The notes beneath the pieces are model-generated. The model ran no database searches. It saw only the letters and a program-made list of their open reading frames with translations, and was not told where the DNA came from. The translations under genes were made by a program, and so were the position numbers. Shown one piece after another: positions 2,362 to 58,713 of a stretch of DNA of 64,000 nt; position 1 is the stretch's first letter, and every line of letters starts with the position of its first letter. The DNA is from Agrococcus sp. SGAir0287. Lineage in GTDB: Bacteria; Actinomycetota; Actinomycetes; Actinomycetales; Microbacteriaceae. The stretch spans positions 2,418,001 to 2,482,000 of the forward strand of contig NZ_CP027942.1 of assembly GCF_005484985.1 (NCBI RefSeq), read 5' to 3'.

Positions 2362-3870
2362 TCAGCCGTGCGCGCGGAGGCGACGGGTGACGAGCGCGGC
2401 GCCTGCGAGCGCCAGCAGCGCGCCCAGGGCGAGCATCGGCGTCACGTCGAAGCCCGTCTGGGGCAGACGCGGCGTGGTCGCCTGCGGCGGCGTCTGGCCG
2501 GCCGGCGGCTGGGCCGGCGGCGTCGCGACGGTGCAGAGCTCGCCACCGGCTGCCGGCACGTCCACCGTGAAGGTGCGCGTCGTCAGGTCGCTCGAGACGC
2601 CGGGCAGACCGGCCTGGAAGGCCGCGCCCTGGTCGGCCACGGCGACGAAGGTCGCCTGGCCGCCCGCGGCGGGGGCGTCCGTCACGGTCCACGAGGCGTT
2701 CTCGATGGCGCCGGTCGTCGCCGACCCGGGAGCCGTGCAGGACGCGGGCGTGACCGTGACGTCGGCCGTGGCGACGCCCGTGACCGGGGTGTCGCACTCC
2801 TGCTCCTGCAGGGTGAACGTCCACGAGGTCTGGGCACCCTCGGGCGCGGTCCAGCCCTCGTCGAACGCGACGGTGATCGTGATGACGCGCTCGCCGTCGG
2901 TGTAGGTGCCCGGGTCGGTCACCACGTAGCGGTAGTGCTCGCCGTCGGCGGGCAGCGTGTACGGCGCGTCGCCGTCGGGGCCGCAGATCTCGGTCGGCGT
3001 GGGTGCGGGGATGGGCCCGGTCGTGCACGGCTCGTTCGTCACGTCGAAGGTGAACTGGCGCGGCGCGGTGGTGCCGTCGTCCCACGTGAAGCCCTCGGCG
3101 AGGGTTGCGGTGATCACGACCGTGCCCTGGCCGTCGACGACGCCGCTCTCGTCGACCGAGAAGGAGTAGCCGTCGGCGTCCGTCACGGCGGGCAGCTGCA
3201 CGTCGTAGCCGGGGCCGCACTCGTCGACGACGTTCGGCGTGCCCTCGATGGTGGTGGGCACGTCGCACGGCTCGTTCGTCGCGTGGAACGTCCAGGTCTT
3301 CGGCGCGGTCGAGCCGTCCTCCCACACGTAGCCGTCGTTCAGGGTCGCGGTGACGACGACGTCGCCGGCGCCGTCCTGCGTGCCGTCGGCCACGCTGAAG
3401 CGGTAGCCCTCGGTGTCCGCCGGGACCGTCAGCTGGAAGTCCGGGCCGCAGACGTCGTGGAAGGAGGGCTCGGTCGTGATGCCGACGTGCGTCGCGGGCG
3501 GCTCCTCGCACGCCGTCTGCGTGCCGGAGCCGTGGTAGTCGTACTGGTCCCCGTCGCCCTGGTCGATCGTCACGGCCCAGGTGTGGTCGACGGTGTCGTC
3601 CCACGGGAAGGAGCGCACGAAGCTCGCACCGAACGTCTCGTCGACGACGGTGTCGCCGTCGATGACGACGGTGACGCGGTTCGGAGCGTTGCCGTTGTAG
3701 TTGGTCGCGGACACGTCGAGGGACGTGCACGTCGGGTTCGCCGCAGGCGTGTGCGCCTGCGCGGCCTGGGGCGAGACGGTCACGAGCAGGGCGCTGAGGA
3801 GCGCCGTCAGCAGGAGAACCGCCGCGAGCGCGAGGGCTCGCGGACGCCTGGAGATGGAGGTGTCGAGCAC
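2362..3870 (-). CDS. sortase-anchored surface protein with three cysteine-bounded repeats
   Basis: A 502-residue cell-wall protein. Residues 1-40 are a signal peptide (basic start, then a long hydrophobic stretch ending near QAAQAHT). The C-terminus has LPQTG at about 469-473, a hydrophobic helix and a basic tail (RRLRAHG), the classic sorting signal for sortase anchoring to peptidoglycan. The middle carries three related blocks of about 65-70 residues. Each starts with a CGP motif, has a VVITATL-like strand and a W.(D/E)GTTAP turn, and ends in NEPC or EQEC. This looks like stacked beta-sandwich domains, each possibly closed by a disulfide. GTG is taken as the start, with no strong Shine-Dalgarno. 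Ligand and role are unknown; adhesion is a guess. Confidence 0.75.
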   Translation of the reverse strand: MLDTSISRRPRALALAAVLLLTALLSALLVTVSPQAAQAHTPAANPTCTSLDVSATNYNGNAPNRVTVVIDGDTVVDETFGASFVRSFPWDDTVDHTWAVTIDQGDGDQYDYHGSGTQTACEEPPATHVGITTEPSFHDVCGPDFQLTVPADTEGYRFSVADGTQDGAGDVVVTATLNDGYVWEDGSTAPKTWTFHATNEPCDVPTTIEGTPNVVDECGPGYDVQLPAVTDADGYSFSVDESGVVDGQGTVVITATLAEGFTWDDGTTAPRQFTFDVTNEPCTTGPIPAPTPTEICGPDGDAPYTLPADGEHYRYVVTDPGTYTDGERVITITVAFDEGWTAPEGAQTSWTFTLQEQECDTPVTGVATADVTVTPASCTAPGSATTGAIENASWTVTDAPAAGGQATFVAVADQGAAFQAGLPGVSSDLTTRTFTVDVPAAGGELCTVATPPAQPPAGQTPPQATTPRLPQTGFDVTPMLALGALLALAGAALVTRRLRAHG

Positions 3871-8132: not shown

Positions 8133-10352
<2,220 letters not shown>

Positions 10353-10355
10353 CGC

Positions 10356-10410
10356 GTCGAGACGCAGCAGAGGGGACCCGGTCGATGCCGGGGCCCCTCT
10401 GCGTCTCGAC
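10356..10410 (+). terminator. terminator of icd
   Basis: A long inverted repeat pairs GTCGAGACGCAG...AGGGG with CCCCTCTGCGTCTCGAC through a three-base bulge, starting four bases after the icd stop. Confidence 0.85.
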
Positions 10411-10414
10411 GCCA

Positions 10415-10485
10415 GCACGAGATGCGCGTGAGGGGCGCCGCGAGGGCGCATTCCACCTCATGCACCGCTCCCGTTCATCTCGTGC
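10415..10485. repeat. left flanking repeat of the first DUF559/AbiEi gene
   Basis: The 10-bp inverted arms GCACGAGATG (10415-10424) and CATCTCGTGC (10476-10485) enclose this unit. Its part 10442-10485 is a 44-bp near copy (37 of 44 identical by eye) of 11397-11440 on the other side of the gene, in the same orientation. The last codons and stop of the gene lie inside the repeat. Confidence 0.65.
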
Positions 10486-11305
10486 GGGGAGCACGATGCA
10501 CGTCGGCGCGGACGAGCGCCAGGATGTCCCGCTCGACGGCCGGCCAGTCGTCGAGCACCTGCCGGTAGGTCAGTCGGATGACGCGGTAGCCCAGGACCAC
10601 GAGCCTGCGATCACGAGCCCGGTCGGCTGCATGCGCAGCCCATGAGCCGTGGTGCTCGGCGCCATCGCATTCGATGACCAGGACCTCCCCCACCACCATG
10701 TCCACGCGCATGTCCTCGATCTGCACCTGCGTCCGGACGACGATGCGGTGGCGGCGCAGTCGGAGTCGCACGATGCTCTCGAGACCCGACTCGGCAGCAG
10801 CGGTGCGCGACAGGAGCGCACGGAACCGGCTCGGCGACGTGTCGACCCACCGCTCGAGGTCGTGCATCGTCGCGAGCCGCAGGTGGAGCAGCGAGTCCGC
10901 GACCACCACGACGTCCTCGTCGCTCCCGCACCTCAGCAGGCAGCGGAACGCGACGTCGATCGGGTCCACCGCGTCGTGCACCGGGGGCATGCGTCCGTGC
11001 GGTCGGCATCCCCGACCCGTCCCGGCTCCGTCGGCGCGCCGGGCGAGCCGCACGTGAACGCGGCCGAGCGACTCCGGCACCCACGCACCGTGGGCCCGCA
11101 GCGCGGTGGCGCAGGCGAGGCAACCTCCTGCGGCGACGGCCGCGACCACCCGGGGGTCGGCCGCCGGCTCCGCGAACCAGCCGTCCCTGATGCGCGTCAG
11201 ATGCCCGTTCGCGACCGAGGCGTCGCGATCCCTCCTCGACCAGCCGAGGAGGCGCAGCTGCGCGGCCGTCAGCACGCCGTGTCGGATGAGCACCGGATCG
11301 ATCAC
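10475..11305 (-). CDS. DUF559-domain, AbiEi/VSR-like nuclease-type protein
   Basis: A 276-residue protein of the type often labelled a type IV toxin-antitoxin (AbiEi-like) or DUF559 protein. Residues 1-50 form a predicted winged-helix (DPVLIRHGVLTAAQLRLLGW...SVANGHLTRIRDGWF). The C-terminal 110 residues resemble the very-short-patch-repair endonuclease fold: LESIVRLRLRRH, VDMVVGEVLVIECDGAEHHGS, then RDRRLVVLGYRVIRLTYRQVL. The Glu, Asp and ECDG residues are the likely metal-binding site. GTG at 11305 was preferred because the upstream extension is low-quality sequence. The gene is bracketed by two related 44-bp repeats, and the left one overlaps its 3' end. A mobile or selfish role is inferred, not shown. 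Confidence 0.65.
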   Translation of the reverse strand: MIDPVLIRHGVLTAAQLRLLGWSRRDRDASVANGHLTRIRDGWFAEPAADPRVVAAVAAGGCLACATALRAHGAWVPESLGRVHVRLARRADGAGTGRGCRPHGRMPPVHDAVDPIDVAFRCLLRCGSDEDVVVVADSLLHLRLATMHDLERWVDTSPSRFRALLSRTAAAESGLESIVRLRLRRHRIVVRTQVQIEDMRVDMVVGEVLVIECDGAEHHGSWAAHAADRARDRRLVVLGYRVIRLTYRQVLDDWPAVERDILALVRADVHRAPRTR

Positions 11306-11396
11306 TCGGCGAGGATGCCGTCGACCGACGCCGTCCCACCGCCAGCAGGCACGACAGGTGGATCGCACGGCACACGATGCACCTGTGGAGGACGAG

Positions 11397-11440
11397 GAGG
11401 GTGCATTCCACCGCACGCCCCGCCCACGTGCATCTCGTGC
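11397..11440. repeat. right flanking repeat of the first DUF559/AbiEi gene
   Basis: A 44-bp direct near copy of 10442-10485. It shares GCATTCCACC near its left end and CATCTCGTGC at its right end, and runs into a perfect 12-bp palindrome, CTCGTGCACGAG (11434-11445). Confidence 0.65.
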
Positions 11441-11523
11441 ACGAGCGCAAGCCCGATCGCGGATCGGGGATCCGTCAGGTGCGCATGCCATGGTGGACCG
11501 TCCCGTCAGGAAGGTCCTCCGTC

Positions 11524-12162
11524 ATGCGCCGACTCGCCACCGCCGCCACGCTGCTCGCAGCCTCGCTCGCCCTCAGCGGCTGCGTGCTCACGCCGCCCTC
11601 CGCACCGCCGCCGCCCACCGACGCCGCGCCTGCCCCCGATCCCACGTCGACGCAGCCGAGCAGCTCTCCGGACGCTGCGCCGTCCTCGACGCCGACGCAG
11701 GCCGCCGACGGCGAGCCGACCGGCACGGTGGAGGGCTCGACCGCCGTCATCTCCAACGACGGCGTCACCTGGCGACTCGAGCTGCTCGACTTCGGACCCG
11801 CACCCCTCGACCAGCTCACCGAGTACGCCGGCGAGGATGGCGCCCCCGCACCCGCGCCGCCGGCCGGCATGGAGGTCGGCTGGGGCTGCTTCCGCGCGAC
11901 GCTCGAGGAGGCCGAGAGCGGCTACGGCTCCCTCATCGACGTCGTCAGCCAGTTCACGGTGCCCGGCGGGGACGACGGCTGGGACTACGAGACCGTCGAC
12001 CGCGATCTCGACCTCTACGGCGCGAGCGGCGACGTCGGCACCGTCATCGACCGCGTGTGCCCCGTCGTGCTCGCACCGGAGGGCTTCGACTACGCGGCGA
12101 TCACGACGATCACCTACGGCAACCAGGGCGACGACCTCGAGCTGCAGATCCCCGCACCCTGA
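11524..12162 (+). CDS. putative lipoprotein, unknown function
   Basis: A 212-residue exported lipoprotein. MRRLATAATLLAASLALSGC gives a signal peptide with the lipobox LSGC, so Cys20 is the expected lipidated residue. A Pro/Ser/Thr/Ala-rich linker of about 50 residues follows, then a roughly 130-residue folded domain with two cysteines (WGCFRATLEE and RVCPVVLAPE) that could form a disulfide. No family was recognised. The ATG at 11524 was chosen because the signal peptide starts there, although the frame stays open to 11377. It converges with sucD and shares the terminator between them. Confidence 0.75.
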   Translation: MRRLATAATLLAASLALSGCVLTPPSAPPPPTDAAPAPDPTSTQPSSSPDAAPSSTPTQAADGEPTGTVEGSTAVISNDGVTWRLELLDFGPAPLDQLTEYAGEDGAPAPAPPAGMEVGWGCFRATLEEAESGYGSLIDVVSQFTVPGGDDGWDYETVDRDLDLYGASGDVGTVIDRVCPVVLAPEGFDYAAITTITYGNQGDDLELQIPAP

Positions 12163-12194
12163 TCGATCCGTCCGGCGCTCGGCGCTCGCGAAAT

Positions 12195-12228
12195 CAGGAG
12201 GGCCCCGGCTGATGCCGGGGCCCTCCTG
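12195..12228. terminator. bidirectional terminator between the lipoprotein gene and sucD
   Basis: A perfect 14-bp inverted repeat (12195-12208 with 12215-12228) with a CTGATG loop lies between two convergent genes. Confidence 0.85.
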
Positions 12229-26614: not shown

Positions 26615-26706
26615 GCGACGGGGATGGCCGGGATGCGCAGGCATCGGGTCTGGCGGGAGCTCGCGCTAGCGAGCGGGGGACTGCGCATCCCGGCCGTCCC
26701 CGTCGC
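26615..26706. repeat. long hairpin element after pcrA
   Basis: The arms 26615-26640 and 26681-26706 form a 26-bp stem with one G-U pair. Inside it is a smaller hairpin, GCTCGC-GCTA-GCGAGC (26659-26674). It lies 44 bases beyond the pcrA stop and could act as its terminator, but it resembles the intergenic palindromic repeats elsewhere in the window. Confidence 0.65.
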
Positions 26707-29152: not shown

Positions 29153-29222
29153 GACGGCTCCAAGCCTACGGGCGACCGCCGACGCGCCGCGCCCGAGACC
29201 CTGCTGCTCGGCGTACGCCATC

Positions 29223-29285
29223 AGCTGGTCGAGGAGCGCGCGAGCCGCCAGGCGAGCACGCGTCACGAGACCACGCGAGCGCCGC
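29223..29285 (+). repeat. REP-like element, family D, copy 1
   Basis: The sequence AGCTGGTCGAGGAGCGCGCG followed by GCGAGCACGCGTCACGAGACC recurs with small changes at 38651-38709, 38756-38812 (reversed), 58203-58251 (reversed) and 58317-58370. Related intergenic repeats are common in Microbacteriaceae. This copy sits between the pcrA promoter and the phosphodiesterase stop. Confidence 0.7.
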
Positions 29286-38650: not shown

Positions 38651-38812
38651 GAGCTGGTCGGGGAGCGCGCGAGCCCGAGGGGCGAGCACGCGTCACGAGA
38701 TCACGCGACGTGCCCTTCCGACGCTACCATGCGCATGGCTGGGCAGGCGCGGCGCTCGCGTGGTCTCGTGACGCGTGCTCGCTGCGCTCGCGCGCTCCTC
38801 GACCAGCTGGAG
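38651..38812. repeat. inverted pair of REP-like elements, family D copies 2 and 3
   Basis: Copy 2 (38651-38709) reads rightward and copy 3 (38756-38812) leftward, 46 bp apart, so together they could form a large hairpin. Copy 3 ends just short of the remains of a DGPF gene. Confidence 0.7.
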
Positions 38813-39187: not shown

Positions 39188-39312
39188 GTCGTGGCCGCAC
39201 TCCGAGAGACGCCCAGTGCATCCCTCTCTCGGCGGCCGCCGCGAGCGCGAGCGAGCGCCTGCCGCCGCAGCGCATCCCGCCCGCGCGGCCCCGAGCGCTC
39301 GGCGCGTGGATC

Positions 39313-39403
39313 GCGGGGTGTCGAGTGACGCAGACGACCGGAGGGGTCGTGGCCCCTAGGCCACGACCCCTCCGGTCGTCTGCGTTGTCCGAGCTGAGGA
39401 GCG
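39313..39403 (+). repeat. 91-bp hairpin element, copy A
   Basis: GCGGGGTGTCGAGT (39313-39326), one base, a perfect 27-bp stem (39328-39354 with 39359-39385), a CCTA loop, one base, then GTCCGAGCTGAGGAGCG (39387-39403). Two further copies with the same ends and geometry but different stems lie at 57924-58014 and 58528-58618. This copy begins 32 bases beyond the guaA stop and may end its transcript. Confidence 0.9.
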
Positions 39404-39434
39404 ATTCACGCGCCGAGCGCAGACCCGCGGGCCC

Positions 39435-41006
39435 TCACTCCCACTCGATCGTCCCCGGAGGCTTCGACGTCACGTCGAGCACGACGCGATTCACCTCCTC
39501 GACCTCGTTCGTGATCCGGTTCGAGATGCGGGCGAGCACGTCGTACGGCAGGCGCGTCCAGTCGGCCGTCATGGCGTCCTCCGACGACACGGGTCGCAGC
39601 ACGACGGGGTGGCCGTAGGTGCGACCGTCGCCCTGGACGCCGACGGAGCGGACGTCGGCGAGCAGCACGACGGGGCACTGCCAGATCTCGCCGTCGAGGC
39701 CGGCGGCGGTGAGCTCGGCGCGTGCGATGGCGTCGGCGCGGCGCAGGGTGTCGAGGCGCTCCTCGGTGACCTCGCCGATGATGCGGATGCCGAGGCCGGG
39801 TCCGGGGAACGGCTGACGGCCGACGATGACCTCCGGCAGGCCGAGCTCGCGGCCGATGGCGCGCACCTCGTCCTTGAAGAGGGCGCGCAGCGGCTCGATG
39901 AGCTGGAACTGCAGGTCGTCGGGCAGGCCGCCGACGTTGTGGTGCGACTTGATGTTGGCGGTGCCGGTGCCGCCGCCCGACTCGACGACGTCGGGGTAGA
40001 GGGTGCCCTGCACGAGCCAGCGGATGGGCGCGCCGTCGGCGGCTGCCTCGGCGACGAGGTCGCGCTCGGCCTGCTCGAACGCGCGGATGAACTCGCGGCC
40101 GATGATCTTGCGCTTCGTCTCGGGGTCGGTGACGCCGGCGAGCGCGGAGAGGAACTGCTCGCGGGCGTCCACCGTCACGAGGCGCACGCCGGTGGAGGCG
40201 ACGTAGTCCTGCTCGACCTGCTCCCGCTCGTCCTGCCGCAGGAGGCCGTGGTCGACGAAGATGCAGACGAGCTGGTCGCCGACCGCCTCGTGCACGAGCG
40301 CGGCGGCGACGGCGGAGTCGACGCCGCCGGAGAGGCCGCAGATGACGCGGTCGGTGCCGACCTGCTCGCGGATGCGCTGCACCTGCTCCTCGATGATGTT
40401 GTCCGACGCCCAGTCGCCTGGGAGTCCGGCGATGTCGTGGAGGAACGCCTCGATGACGCGCTGGCCGTGCTCGGAGTGCCGCACCTCGGGGTGCCACTGC
40501 ACGCCGGCGAGTCGACGCTCGCGATGCTCGAACGCTGCGACGGGGGTGTCGACGGACGAGGCGAGCACCTCGAAGCCCTCCGGTGCCTCGGCGACGGCGT
40601 CGCCGTGGCTCATCCACACGGTCTGCGCGTCGGGCTGCTCGGCGAGGAGGCTGCCGGCGGCGCCGACGGTGACGGCGGTGGAGCCGTACTCGCGGTTGCC
40701 GGTGCGGGCGACCCGGCCGCCGAGCTGCGCCGCCATGACCTGGAAGCCGTAGCAGATGCCGAGCGTCGGGATGCCGAGGTCGAGGATCTCGGGGTCGAGG
40801 CGCGGCGCGCCCTCGGCGTAGACGCTCGACGGTCCGCCGGAGAGCACGATCGCGGCGGGATCCTTGGCCCGCACCTCCTCGGCGGTGATGCTCGACGGCA
40901 CGATCTCCGAGTAGACGTCGGCCTCGCGCACGCGGCGGGCGATGAGCTGCGCGTACTGGGCGCCGAAGTCGACGACGAGGACGGGACGCTGGGAGGTGTC
41001 TGCCAT
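39435..41006 (-). CDS. guaA: GMP synthase (glutamine-hydrolysing)
   Basis: Converts XMP to GMP using glutamine and ATP. The N-terminal class I amidotransferase domain has [20 protein letters not shown], the nucleophile Cys in LGICYGFQ and the His-Glu pair in GVQWHPEV. The PP-loop ATPase follows ([17 protein letters not shown]), and the C-terminal dimerisation domain ends [12 protein letters not shown]...[11 protein letters not shown]. The 523-residue length is normal. ATG at 41006 is eight bases after the DUF3817 stop. Hairpin element A lies just downstream. Confidence 0.97.
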
Positions 41007-50663: not shown

Positions 50664-50782
50664 CCGTTGCGAGGTGCGCTTCCTGCGCCGGGGTGCGCTT
50701 CCTACGGCGTCCGCCGATGCGAGGTGCGCGTGCTGCAGTGAGGTGGCGTTGCAACGGCACCTCAGTGCAGCAACCGCACCTC
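50664..50782. repeat. left repeat cluster of the second DUF559/AbiEi-type gene
   Basis: Two partial units (GAGGTGCGCTTCCTGCG and GGGTGCGCTTCCTACG) are followed by a 62-bp imperfect palindrome at 50721-50782. Its ends are GAGGTGCG and CGCACCTC and its centre is CGTTGCAACG. The palindrome stops 16 bp from the gene's stop codon. Confidence 0.8.
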
Positions 50783-50798
50783 CCAACGTCGGTCTGCG

Positions 50799-51725
50799 TC
50801 ACGGGAGGAGGCGCACGCCAGCCGGCAGCACGGGGTCGCGCCGCCGCAGGCCCGCAGCGCGCAGGATGCGTGCGAGTCGCTCGGGTCGCACGACGTCGTC
50901 CCACGTCCACCGACAGAGGTCTGCCACGCGGCGGATCGCATCCTCCCGGCGCTTCTCAGCGACGAGCGCATCGACGCCCGTGCGGCCCGAGGCCGATGCG
51001 AGGGCGCCGTACTTGACGAGGCCATCGAACTCGCCCAGCAGCCATCGATCGTCGAGCCGCCAGCCGAAGTCGGCTCGGAACGATCCGAGATCCGTCCGGA
51101 CCTCGACCTGCAGCTCGGGGGCAGGAAAGCCGAGCAGCGCGATCGCCACCCGGCTGCGCGACTCCCCCACCGACTCCGACCGACCATCGGCGAACGCGAC
51201 CGACCACCGCGCGCGGGCGCCGCCCTGCCGGCTCTGATACGCGAGCGCTCCGAGGATGTCGTCGACGTCGACCGTCCCCGCTGCAAGCGCAGCGTCCACG
51301 GATGCGACCGCAGCGCTCGGGATCCGCCGTCGGCCGATGTCGGCCAAGGTCCATGCGACGCTCGAGCACCGCAGTCCTTCGACCTCGACGACGTGCTCGG
51401 GGCGGATCGGCAGATGCGAGTTGCGGACGCCGGCACGACCGCCCGACATCGCGGGATCGCCGGTGCTGAACACGTGGCTCGGCTCCGAGCCGAACGGCAG
51501 GCCGTGCAGCATGAGGGCGGACTCGAGCGCGAGCACGATGCCGGGTCGCGCCAACCCGACCGCCTTCACCCGCGCGCGGTACCGCTGCTCGGGGTCGGCC
51601 GCTGCGAGGGCAGCAGCGTCCACGTAGGCGCCGCGACGGACGCGTGCGAGTCCTCGTGAGCGCGAGGGCACGAGACCGAGCGCGTGCACCTGCGAGGTCT
51701 GGACGATGTCGAGCGGATCCGGCAT
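50799..51725 (-). CDS. AbiEi-like protein with PD-(D/E)XK-type nuclease domain
   Basis: A 308-residue protein. Residues 1-45 resemble a degenerate winged helix (QVHALGLVPSRSRGLARVRRGAYVDA), and residues 60-150 are AbiEi-like (LESALMLHGLPFG, HVVEVEGLRCSSVAWTLADIGRR). The C-terminal part has a nuclease-like series: GESRSRVAIALLGFPAPELQVEV, FRADFGWRLDDRWLLGEFDGLVKYG. The spaced Glu, Asp, Glu and Lys fit a PD-(D/E)XK active site. It is distantly related in plan to the gene at 10475-11305. Homologous 62-64 bp palindromes bracket it. Whether it is an immunity factor, a repair enzyme or a selfish nuclease is not known. Confidence 0.6.
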   Translation of the reverse strand: MPDPLDIVQTSQVHALGLVPSRSRGLARVRRGAYVDAAALAAADPEQRYRARVKAVGLARPGIVLALESALMLHGLPFGSEPSHVFSTGDPAMSGGRAGVRNSHLPIRPEHVVEVEGLRCSSVAWTLADIGRRRIPSAAVASVDAALAAGTVDVDDILGALAYQSRQGGARARWSVAFADGRSESVGESRSRVAIALLGFPAPELQVEVRTDLGSFRADFGWRLDDRWLLGEFDGLVKYGALASASGRTGVDALVAEKRREDAIRRVADLCRWTWDDVVRPERLARILRAAGLRRRDPVLPAGVRLLP

Positions 51726-51810
51726 GGTCGCACCCTGTCGGCCAGCCGTCGATCGCGTGCCGACAGCATCCGAGGCTGTGGATGCCGCCGGCCTGTGAGG
51801 GACGCTTCAT

Positions 51811-51986
51811 CGTTGCGAGGTGCGCCTGCTGCACTCAGGGGCCGTTGCAACGGCACCTCGCAGCAGCAGGCGCACCTCGGAACGATTGCGGCGTCGGGAA
51901 CCGCACCTCACTGCACGAAACGCACCTCGGAGCGACCACATCGGCCGCAAGCGCACCGCACTGCACGAAGCGCACCTCGGAACGAC
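51811..51986. repeat. right repeat cluster of the second DUF559/AbiEi-type gene
   Basis: A 64-bp palindrome at 51816-51879 has perfect 17-bp outer arms (CGAGGTGCGCCTGCTGC) and the same CGTTGCAACG centre as the left cluster. Two direct units follow, 50 bp apart (51901-51936 and 51951-51986), each of the form CGCACCKCACTGCACGAA then CGCACCTCGGARCGAC. Confidence 0.85.
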
Positions 51987-51990
51987 GACA

Positions 51991-52015
51991 CGCCCCCCCG
52001 CCGGAGCGAGGGGCG
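51991..52015 (-). terminator. weak terminator of guaB
   Basis: CGCCCC (51991-51996) pairs with GGGGCG (52010-52015), beginning 26 bases after the guaB stop. The stem is short and confidence is low. Confidence 0.35.
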
Positions 52016-57857: not shown

Positions 57858-57889
57858 GGAGGCGTCGCACCTGCGGGTGCGGCGCCTCC
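57858..57889 (+). terminator. terminator of the livHMGF operon
   Basis: A 14-bp stem (57858-57871 with 57876-57889, one G-U pair) with a TGCG loop is followed by a short T-rich run (TTCGTTCT), 16 bases after the livF stop. Confidence 0.85.
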
Positions 57890-57923
57890 TTCGTTCTCCC
57901 GGGGTGGGCGGTCGGCGGGACGT

Positions 57924-58014
57924 CGCTCCTCAGCTCGGACGATGAGGGTGGGGCGCGGGGTCGCGGCCTGGCGGCCGTGACCCCGCGCCCCACCCTCATG
58001 ACTCGACACCCCGC
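57924..58014 (-). repeat. 91-bp hairpin element, copy C (reverse orientation)
   Basis: On the minus strand it reads GCGGGGTGTCGAGT, one base, a 27-bp stem (57942-57968 with 57973-57999 in plus coordinates, one wobble), a four-base loop, one base and GTCCGAGCTGAGGAGCG. The ends match copies A and B exactly. The outer half of the stem is different. Confidence 0.9.
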
Positions 58015-58202
58015 GACATCCCGTCGACCGCCCACCCCTCGCGTCCTCGAGGGCTGAGCGGTCTAGAGGATCCTGGACGAGCCGCACCGCTGGGGTGGGC
58101 GCTGCGCGCGCGTTCCGCCGACCGGCGTCGGCGCGCGGCCGTTCCCGACCTCGACGGTGCTCACCGAGGGACGCTCGCGCGCACCGCGGACGGCGAGGTG
58201 CG

Positions 58203-58370
58203 GGTCTCGTGACGGCTGCTCGCTGTGCTCGCGGCCTCCTCGACCAGCTGGGAGGGGGCAGAGCGACGACATCGCCGAATGAGGCTTCCCCTCGATCGGG
58301 ACGCTGCGCTCCCGCAGCCGGTCGAGGAGCGCGTGGGCTTGCGCCGCATGCGTCACGAGACCCGCGCACC
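58203..58370. repeat. inverted pair of REP-like elements, family D copies 4 and 5
   Basis: Copy 4 (58203-58251, leftward) and copy 5 (58317-58370, rightward) face away from each other across 65 bp. Their outer edges, GGTCTCGTGACG and CGTCACGAGACC, are exact complements. The surrounding non-coding sequence (58015-58202 and 58371-58527) shows no gene. Confidence 0.65.
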
Positions 58371-58527
58371 TCCGGAGCGCCGACCCGTGGTGACGCCCAC
58401 GCGGACCCGCGGAGGGCTGGGAACGGCCGCGCGAGGACGCCGGGTCGACGGACGCGCGCGCAGCGCCCCAACGATTCGGCGTTCGCTCCTCACCCGAGAC
58501 GGAGGGACGGCGGTGCGCGGAGATGGC

Positions 58528-58618
58528 GCGGGGTGTCGAGTTATGGGGAAGGGAGGAGGGGGTGCGGCCGCTAGGCCGCATCCCCTCCTCCCTTCCCCAT
58601 TGTCTGAGCTGAGGAGCG
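58528..58618 (+). repeat. 91-bp hairpin element, copy B
   Basis: GCGGGGTGTCGAGT (58528-58541), one base, a 27-bp stem (58543-58569 with 58574-58600, one G-U pair), a GCTA loop, one base, then GTCTGAGCTGAGGAGCG. It is oriented opposite to copy C, 513 bp away. Confidence 0.9.
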
Positions 58619-58679
58619 CCATCGCCGTGCACCGCCGACCCGGTCATGGCAGACGAACCCCCGCACGACACCGGAACAG

Positions 58680-58713
58680 CAGAAGGACCCCGGATGACTC
58701 CGGGGCCCTTCTG
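58680..58713 (-). terminator. terminator of livK
   Basis: A 15-bp stem (58680-58694 with 58699-58713, one mismatch) with a TGAC loop begins 31 bases beyond the livK stop. Confidence 0.8.

Follow-up and report, generated by a model that had tools for sequence, protein, structure and literature searches.

In integrons, one strand of the attC site folds and is used, its structure is kept over the sequence of its stem, and the site is situated after a gene. The ERIC elements, or intergenic repeat units, are palindromic intergenic elements of ~127 bp whose copies keep their sequence. In two papers (PMC3733652, PMC3116915) REP sequences are described as short (20-40 bp), present in high copy number and marked by a GTAG or CGTC tag, and REPINs as tied to RAYT transposases; the same papers place these extragenic hairpins often downstream of genes or between convergent genes, in pairs of opposite orientation, and mention that a possible RNA role has been proposed for REPs.

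The element analyzed here lies in a stretch of 64,000 nucleotides from Agrococcus sp. SGAir0287, a member of the Microbacteriaceae (contig NZ_CP027942.1, positions 2,418,001 to 2,482,000), referred to as the window. The original prediction placed in it three 91-bp hairpins with fixed ends, exact length and rewritten stems. All three were confirmed at the predicted positions, each with the layout 14+1+27+4+27+1+17 and with an inner hairpin of 27-bp arms (96-100% complementary) and a 4-nt loop. The fixed ends are indeed conserved in sequence but do not terminate the element: the 14-bp and 17-bp "conserved flanks" form the opposite sides of an internal loop that separates two stems, the outer one (~20 bp, surrounding the 27-bp inner stem) having been missed earlier, and the whole unit comprises ~130 nt. 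The features of the window are as follows.

39294..39422, + strand: element copy 1, 13 nt past the guaA stop codon and antisense to guaA; its 91-bp part is 39313-39403
39328-39354/39359-39385: inner arms of copy 1, 100% complementary
39435..41003, - strand: guaA (GMP synthase), the neighbour of the family in 9 genera
57858..57889, + strand: the livF-like gene's own terminator hairpin (ordinary type), separating the stop codon from copy 2
57901..58038: outer stem of copy 2 (arms 57901-57926 / 58013-58038), 92% complementary
57905..58033, - strand: element copy 2, antisense to the livF-like gene and past its terminator; the copy's 91-bp part is 57924-58014
57942-57968/57973-57999: inner arms of copy 2, 96% complementary
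58034..58508: space between the diverging copies 2 and 3, its halves being imperfect inverted repeats (72% over ~165 bp)
58504..58641: outer stem of copy 3 (arms 58504-58529 / 58616-58641), 88% complementary
58509..58637, + strand: element copy 3, antisense to the substrate-binding-protein-like gene and past its terminator; the copy's 91-bp part is 58528-58618
58543-58569/58574-58600: inner arms of copy 3, 96% complementary
58681..58712, - strand: the substrate-binding-protein-like gene's own terminator hairpin (ordinary type), separating the stop codon from copy 3

Copies 2 and 3 diverge from each other, and copy 1 likewise possesses an outer stem. The architecture of the family consists of the outer stem, an asymmetric internal loop of fixed sequence (GGGGTGTCGAGTT / TGTYTGAGCTGAGGA), the inner stem and an apical loop; as read from the sequence, the internal loop looks like tandem sheared G·A pairs adjoining a small bulge. 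The 3.08-Mb source genome holds no copy beyond these three by pattern search or by the covariance model described below.

The halves of the space between copies 2 and 3 resemble the equivalent stretch upstream of other element copies in the clade. Other repeats were also seen in the window. A 12-bp repeat of the CTCGACCAGCTG type (38798-38809, 58239-58250, 58315-58326, 29222-29233 and others; nine matches with at most one mismatch against 0.9 expected, three of them exact) is part of a larger inverted-repeat unit, which is present between element pairs too. In the Agrococcus clade with several copies, the box ACGCGCGCGCAGCGCC precedes many of the elements (L113:7482 and similar); its two-mismatch count in the window is at chance level, and its two exact matches there (58098-58113 and 58452-58467) flank the element pair. 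Large imperfect palindromes with GAGGTGCG / CGCACCTC units are situated at 50704-50799 and 51799-51996.

The element resembles REPs and REPINs in being an extragenic hairpin, often downstream of genes or between convergent genes and in opposite-orientation pairs, but it is far longer (~130 nt), occurs in 1-11 copies per genome in the genus, combines a fixed internal loop with replaceable stems, and by eye shows neither GTAG nor CGTC tag. Like attC, it folds on one strand, keeps its structure over stem sequence and follows a gene; unlike attC, it carries a long invariant internal loop on both sides and has housekeeping neighbours in any orientation. From the ERIC elements, which are of similar size and also palindromic and intergenic, it is distinguished by stems that are replaced between copies.

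When the two loop strands were searched as an exact pattern in the genome collection, 27 stretches were obtained, of which 24 came from Cryobacterium, Agrococcus, Mycetocola and Glaciibacter; three of the 27 (L028, L035 and L045) had no stems and were removed before alignment as chance matches. Removal of near-duplicates (L016 and one of L030) from 38 copies left an alignment of 36 distinct ones, in which 94.4% of 1260 cells are paired in the stated structure and double-sided changes occur at 33 of 35 pairs; the same structure slid by 1-3 columns, used as a control, pairs 39-49% of cells. The covariation thus goes beyond the slid controls, as for a structured RNA family: the loop is conserved and both stems covary. 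Chance as the origin of the hairpins in the window is excluded by the same loop-strand pair recurring with covarying stems in other genera. Exact length did not hold as a family trait, the span from GGGTGTC to GAGGA being 81-88 nt in the pattern-found copies (the three chance matches left out) and whole aligned elements measuring 101-161 nt, plus one odd copy of 207 nt. Of the observations named beforehand as speaking against the proposal, variable length elsewhere was therefore encountered; absent flanks, or stems differing only by unpaired point changes, were not.

A covariance model built from the 36 aligned copies, the search suggested with the original prediction, has hits in 13 of the 24 genomes from the window's genus and, with stricter filters that make the count a lower bound, in at least 46 of 398 sampled Microbacteriaceae genomes from 20 of 85 genera. 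In an order-wide sample 5 of 396 genomes match, four within the family and a doubtful fifth (G432, whose match lies at a contig end and on both strands). The class-wide pattern search gave matches in 3 of 394 genomes, two in the genus and one doubtful (G838), with reversed control patterns ringing in 4 genomes. Doubtful matches aside, the element family has been seen only in Microbacteriaceae, mostly with a length of 100-160 nt. The 81 model matches include two short shadows on the opposite strand (49 and 55 nt); without them the set comprises 79 copies. Rfam 15 has no family for the element and gave no match in the window; a search of eight loci with E values of 1 or less yielded, at the element, nothing but chance miRNA hairpins scoring under the gathering threshold. 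Searches of open-licence PMC papers by motif letters and topic brought up nothing on it. The family is apparently undescribed, although its kind, the covarying intergenic element, is already known; the combination of strand polarity, placement and block renewal presented below is unusual.

G·T and A·C stem mismatches are mirror images of each other on the two strands. On the GGGGTGTCGAGT strand of the pattern-found set, which had been selected without regard to stems, 56 G·T stand against 15 A·C after removal of repeats (p ~1e-6); the model-found set gives 102 against 24, the model itself favouring G·T. Terminator-type hairpins between the neighbouring stop codon and the element (n=13) served as the control. 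On the same strand they show the reverse, 4 G·T vs 18 A·C (Fisher p 4e-7 against the element), their wobble pairs sitting on the mRNA strand of the neighbouring gene, as expected of terminators; some of the 13 are mutually orthologous and three are doubtful (L126, L133 and L152), the ratio without those three being 3:13. Since the neighbouring terminators have the opposite polarity, a regional mutational strand bias was ruled out as the source of the G·T excess, and it follows that selection acts on the GGGGTGTCGAGT strand to fold in single-stranded form. The predicted RNA fold is more stable on this strand in 75 of 77 distinct copies; for 9 of the 13 control hairpins the prediction favours the gene's mRNA strand. 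What functions is probably the folded single strand, most likely as RNA. The ratio of G·T to A·C is 63:18 in convergent spaces, 15:2 where the upstream gene has the same direction, 13:5 where both neighbours are opposed and 13:0 elsewhere, and the bias drops slightly for elements directly next to a stop codon (23:10 at distances below 25 nt). Selection of one strand to fold supports, as a pair, two of the explanations offered originally, a structured RNA family and structured-DNA recognition.

The same asymmetry of mismatches speaks against a DNA site, double-stranded or cruciform, bound by a chromosome protein, for example one that would mark a domain or a replication barrier. The long palindrome would suit such a site, as would the confinement of the copies of one genome to 19-52 kb in three Agrococcus genomes, but in G085 the copies are scattered over the chromosome, and we consider this explanation very unlikely.

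Genomic context was recorded for the genus matches and for the best-scoring part of the family match list, with genes called by a codon-usage script without curated annotation and guaA cases resting on blastp clustering. The copies occupy gene-end spaces, above all after guaA. Convergent genes enclose 47 of the 79 copies; the folding strand is opposed by both neighbours in 19 copies, both neighbours share its direction in 7, and 6 copies are arranged otherwise. Where a gene has been called on the 3' side, the element faces the 3' end of that gene in 66 of 74 copies, and the commonest distance from the stop codon is 8-16 nt. Orientation toward the neighbours is automatic in convergent spaces, and the independent evidence on placement is therefore narrower. 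At guaA, 24 copies from 9 genera always stand in the identical relation to the gene. Spaces with two copies have them diverging in 11 of 12 cases (7 of 8 independent loci), the exception being a repeated rRNA-operon end (L117) in which both copies have the same direction. In four genomes (L033, L117/L030, L031 and L025) the element follows the 5S gene of an rRNA operon in the same relation, facing 5S; L039, with 5S on the wrong side, is an exception. Tandem gene spaces outside guaA show no preference (4 copies in one orientation, 7 in the opposite one). The remaining neighbours with an NCBIfam name are genes of ordinary metabolism or housekeeping, such as icd, sucD, gcvP and glpK, and a pcrA-like helicase gene, with an NCBIfam score below the family cut-off, is also among the neighbours.

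Position at gene ends could point to a terminator, or a stabiliser of the 3' end, acting in the sense direction of the abutting gene. The element has in common with intrinsic terminators a GC-rich hairpin at the end of a gene, the commonest distance of 8-16 nt fits this role, and at icd the Agrococcus genome G007 has an element where G008 has an ordinary terminator. It differs from intrinsic terminators, however, in its invariant loop, its outer stem and the absence by eye of a T run after the outer stem (the inner stem is followed by TTGTYTG on the folding strand). Some copies, moreover, lie beyond the ordinary terminator of the same gene, the 13 hairpins used above as the control, and the mismatch polarity is opposite to that of these terminators. 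The stabiliser or terminator function is unlikely, and an ordinary sense terminator of the abutting gene has been set aside on strand polarity. Canonical terminators standing separately beside some copies, with opposite polarity, also bear out the initial view that the hairpins are neither ordinary terminators nor dispersed repeats. Strong structure on one strand would equally be expected of a small RNA gene transcribed from a promoter of its own toward the neighbouring gene; this is quite unlikely, the upstream sequence being unconserved between genera and showing no promoter by eye.

Most carriers in the genus have a single copy, 8-36 nt past guaA, and the element is absent at guaA in 10 of 23 genus genomes with this locus. 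In G001 the element is gone from the guaA locus but part of an outer arm remains; that loss was therefore not a clean excision. Several copies are found in G000 (3), G007 (11, one further match being an opposite-strand shadow left out of the count) and G008 (5), within 19, 52 and 34 kb around guaA, respectively. Of the 11 G007 copies, six (spread over four spaces) lack a counterpart in G008 and eight (over five spaces) lack one in the window. Similarity among the copies of this multi-copy clade reaches ~300 bp upstream.

Inner hairpins are replaced in discrete blocks. Between G007 and G008 they are identical on the tct and pcrA sides (29/29 on both arms), and at guaA the inner hairpin has been replaced (17/29 and 19/30) next to a gene whose last 300 nt are identical at 293 of 300 positions. 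At livF the window and G007 share the outer stem (21 and 20 of 22) and differ by a replaced inner hairpin (19/29 and 18/28). Two copies in one G008 space have a similarity of 0.84 to each other vs 0.60-0.78 to their orthologs, but the mean similarity of inner hairpins is not higher within a genome (0.71) than it is between genomes (0.69). The predicted rewriting of stems with pairing kept is thus seen both between loci and between orthologous copies. The simplest reading of the block replacement would be copying between element copies via the fixed loop strands; the template-switch renewal of one arm from the other that had been proposed may also be compatible with it.

One-strand folding with freely changing stems, placement at gene ends and the recent gain of copies by one clade (in G007 inside 52 kb) would also suit a single-stranded DNA unit of recombination or transposition like attC or REPIN, in which the strand would fold, an enzyme would read the loop and copies would be moved to gene 3' ends. 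Y1 transposases (IS200/IS605, RAYT) were nevertheless found in none of 23 genomes, whereas 5 of 14 control genomes gave a signal in that search, and integron integrase (TIGR02249) was found in none of 20 genomes by a search in which no control genome rang; both weaken the transposition and integron variants of the original prediction. The element is usually single-copy per genome in the genus, it has no exact pattern match in viral contigs, and the arm remnant in G001 also counts against such a unit. We regard this explanation, the main rival of the one favoured below, as doubtful. Mobilisation of the RAYT/REPIN kind was rejected on the absence of Y1 transposase, and a viral element on the absence of exact matches in viral contigs.

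Several structures related in position were noted. At the 3' end of a pcrA-like gene, where G007 has an element, the window carries at 26615-26706 another hairpin, whose stem has 26 bp and whose asymmetric loop is a different one; as a sister family it was rejected, its loop having a single exact match in 24 genomes and looser matches not exceeding the control. A gene block of ~7.5 kb lies in G007 between two element pairs, between icd and sucD (L112:6033-13554 vs window 10350-12199), and is absent from the window and G008. Tandem partial copies were seen by eye in L152 around 2900-3290 and in L120 upstream of 3188; one of those in L152 is without the inner stem, and another has its 5' half replaced by a terminator-like hairpin.

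The explanation which we favour, tentatively and with its mechanism inferred, is that the element acts as RNA within transcripts crossing the space at a gene 3' end. The two stems would keep the internal loop in shape, and the folded structure would stop, process or mark the crossing transcripts, with its greatest use ahead of their antisense entry into the adjacent gene; the element would thus be a transcription-unit boundary, a backstop working alongside ordinary terminators. The stems would drift freely because they only have to pair, and whole inner hairpins would be replaced as blocks, probably copied between element copies through the fixed loop strands. Strand polarity, divergence of paired copies, placement past some terminators and enrichment between convergent genes all accord with the RNA boundary reading. 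Single-stranded DNA would, however, give the same strand signature, and by eye neither a promoter upstream nor a T run after the outer stem is recognised. The 19 copies with both neighbours against the folding strand are still biased (13:5), and copies without a visible origin of transcripts for the folding strand stay unexplained. The weaker bias close to stop codons, the automatic orientation in convergent spaces, the 4 vs 7 copies in tandem spaces, the same-direction pair of L117 and the misplaced 5S of L039 also count against it.

The analysis establishes a strongly supported family of structured elements that is missing from Rfam 15 and from the open-licence PMC papers that were searched. 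Comparison of wobble pairs with A·C mismatches, with neighbouring terminators as an internal control, reveals the working strand of a palindrome, and the replacement of well-paired stems as blocks at orthologous sites offers a testable case of concerted change in hairpin arms. More speculatively, the family could represent a new class of transcription-boundary RNA: a two-stem structure facing outward at the 3' border of a gene, which would stop opposing antisense transcripts, be kept beside guaA and some rRNA operons, and renew its arms as blocks. If such a guard of gene ends is real, it would provide bacteria with a dedicated device against antisense run-through between convergent genes.
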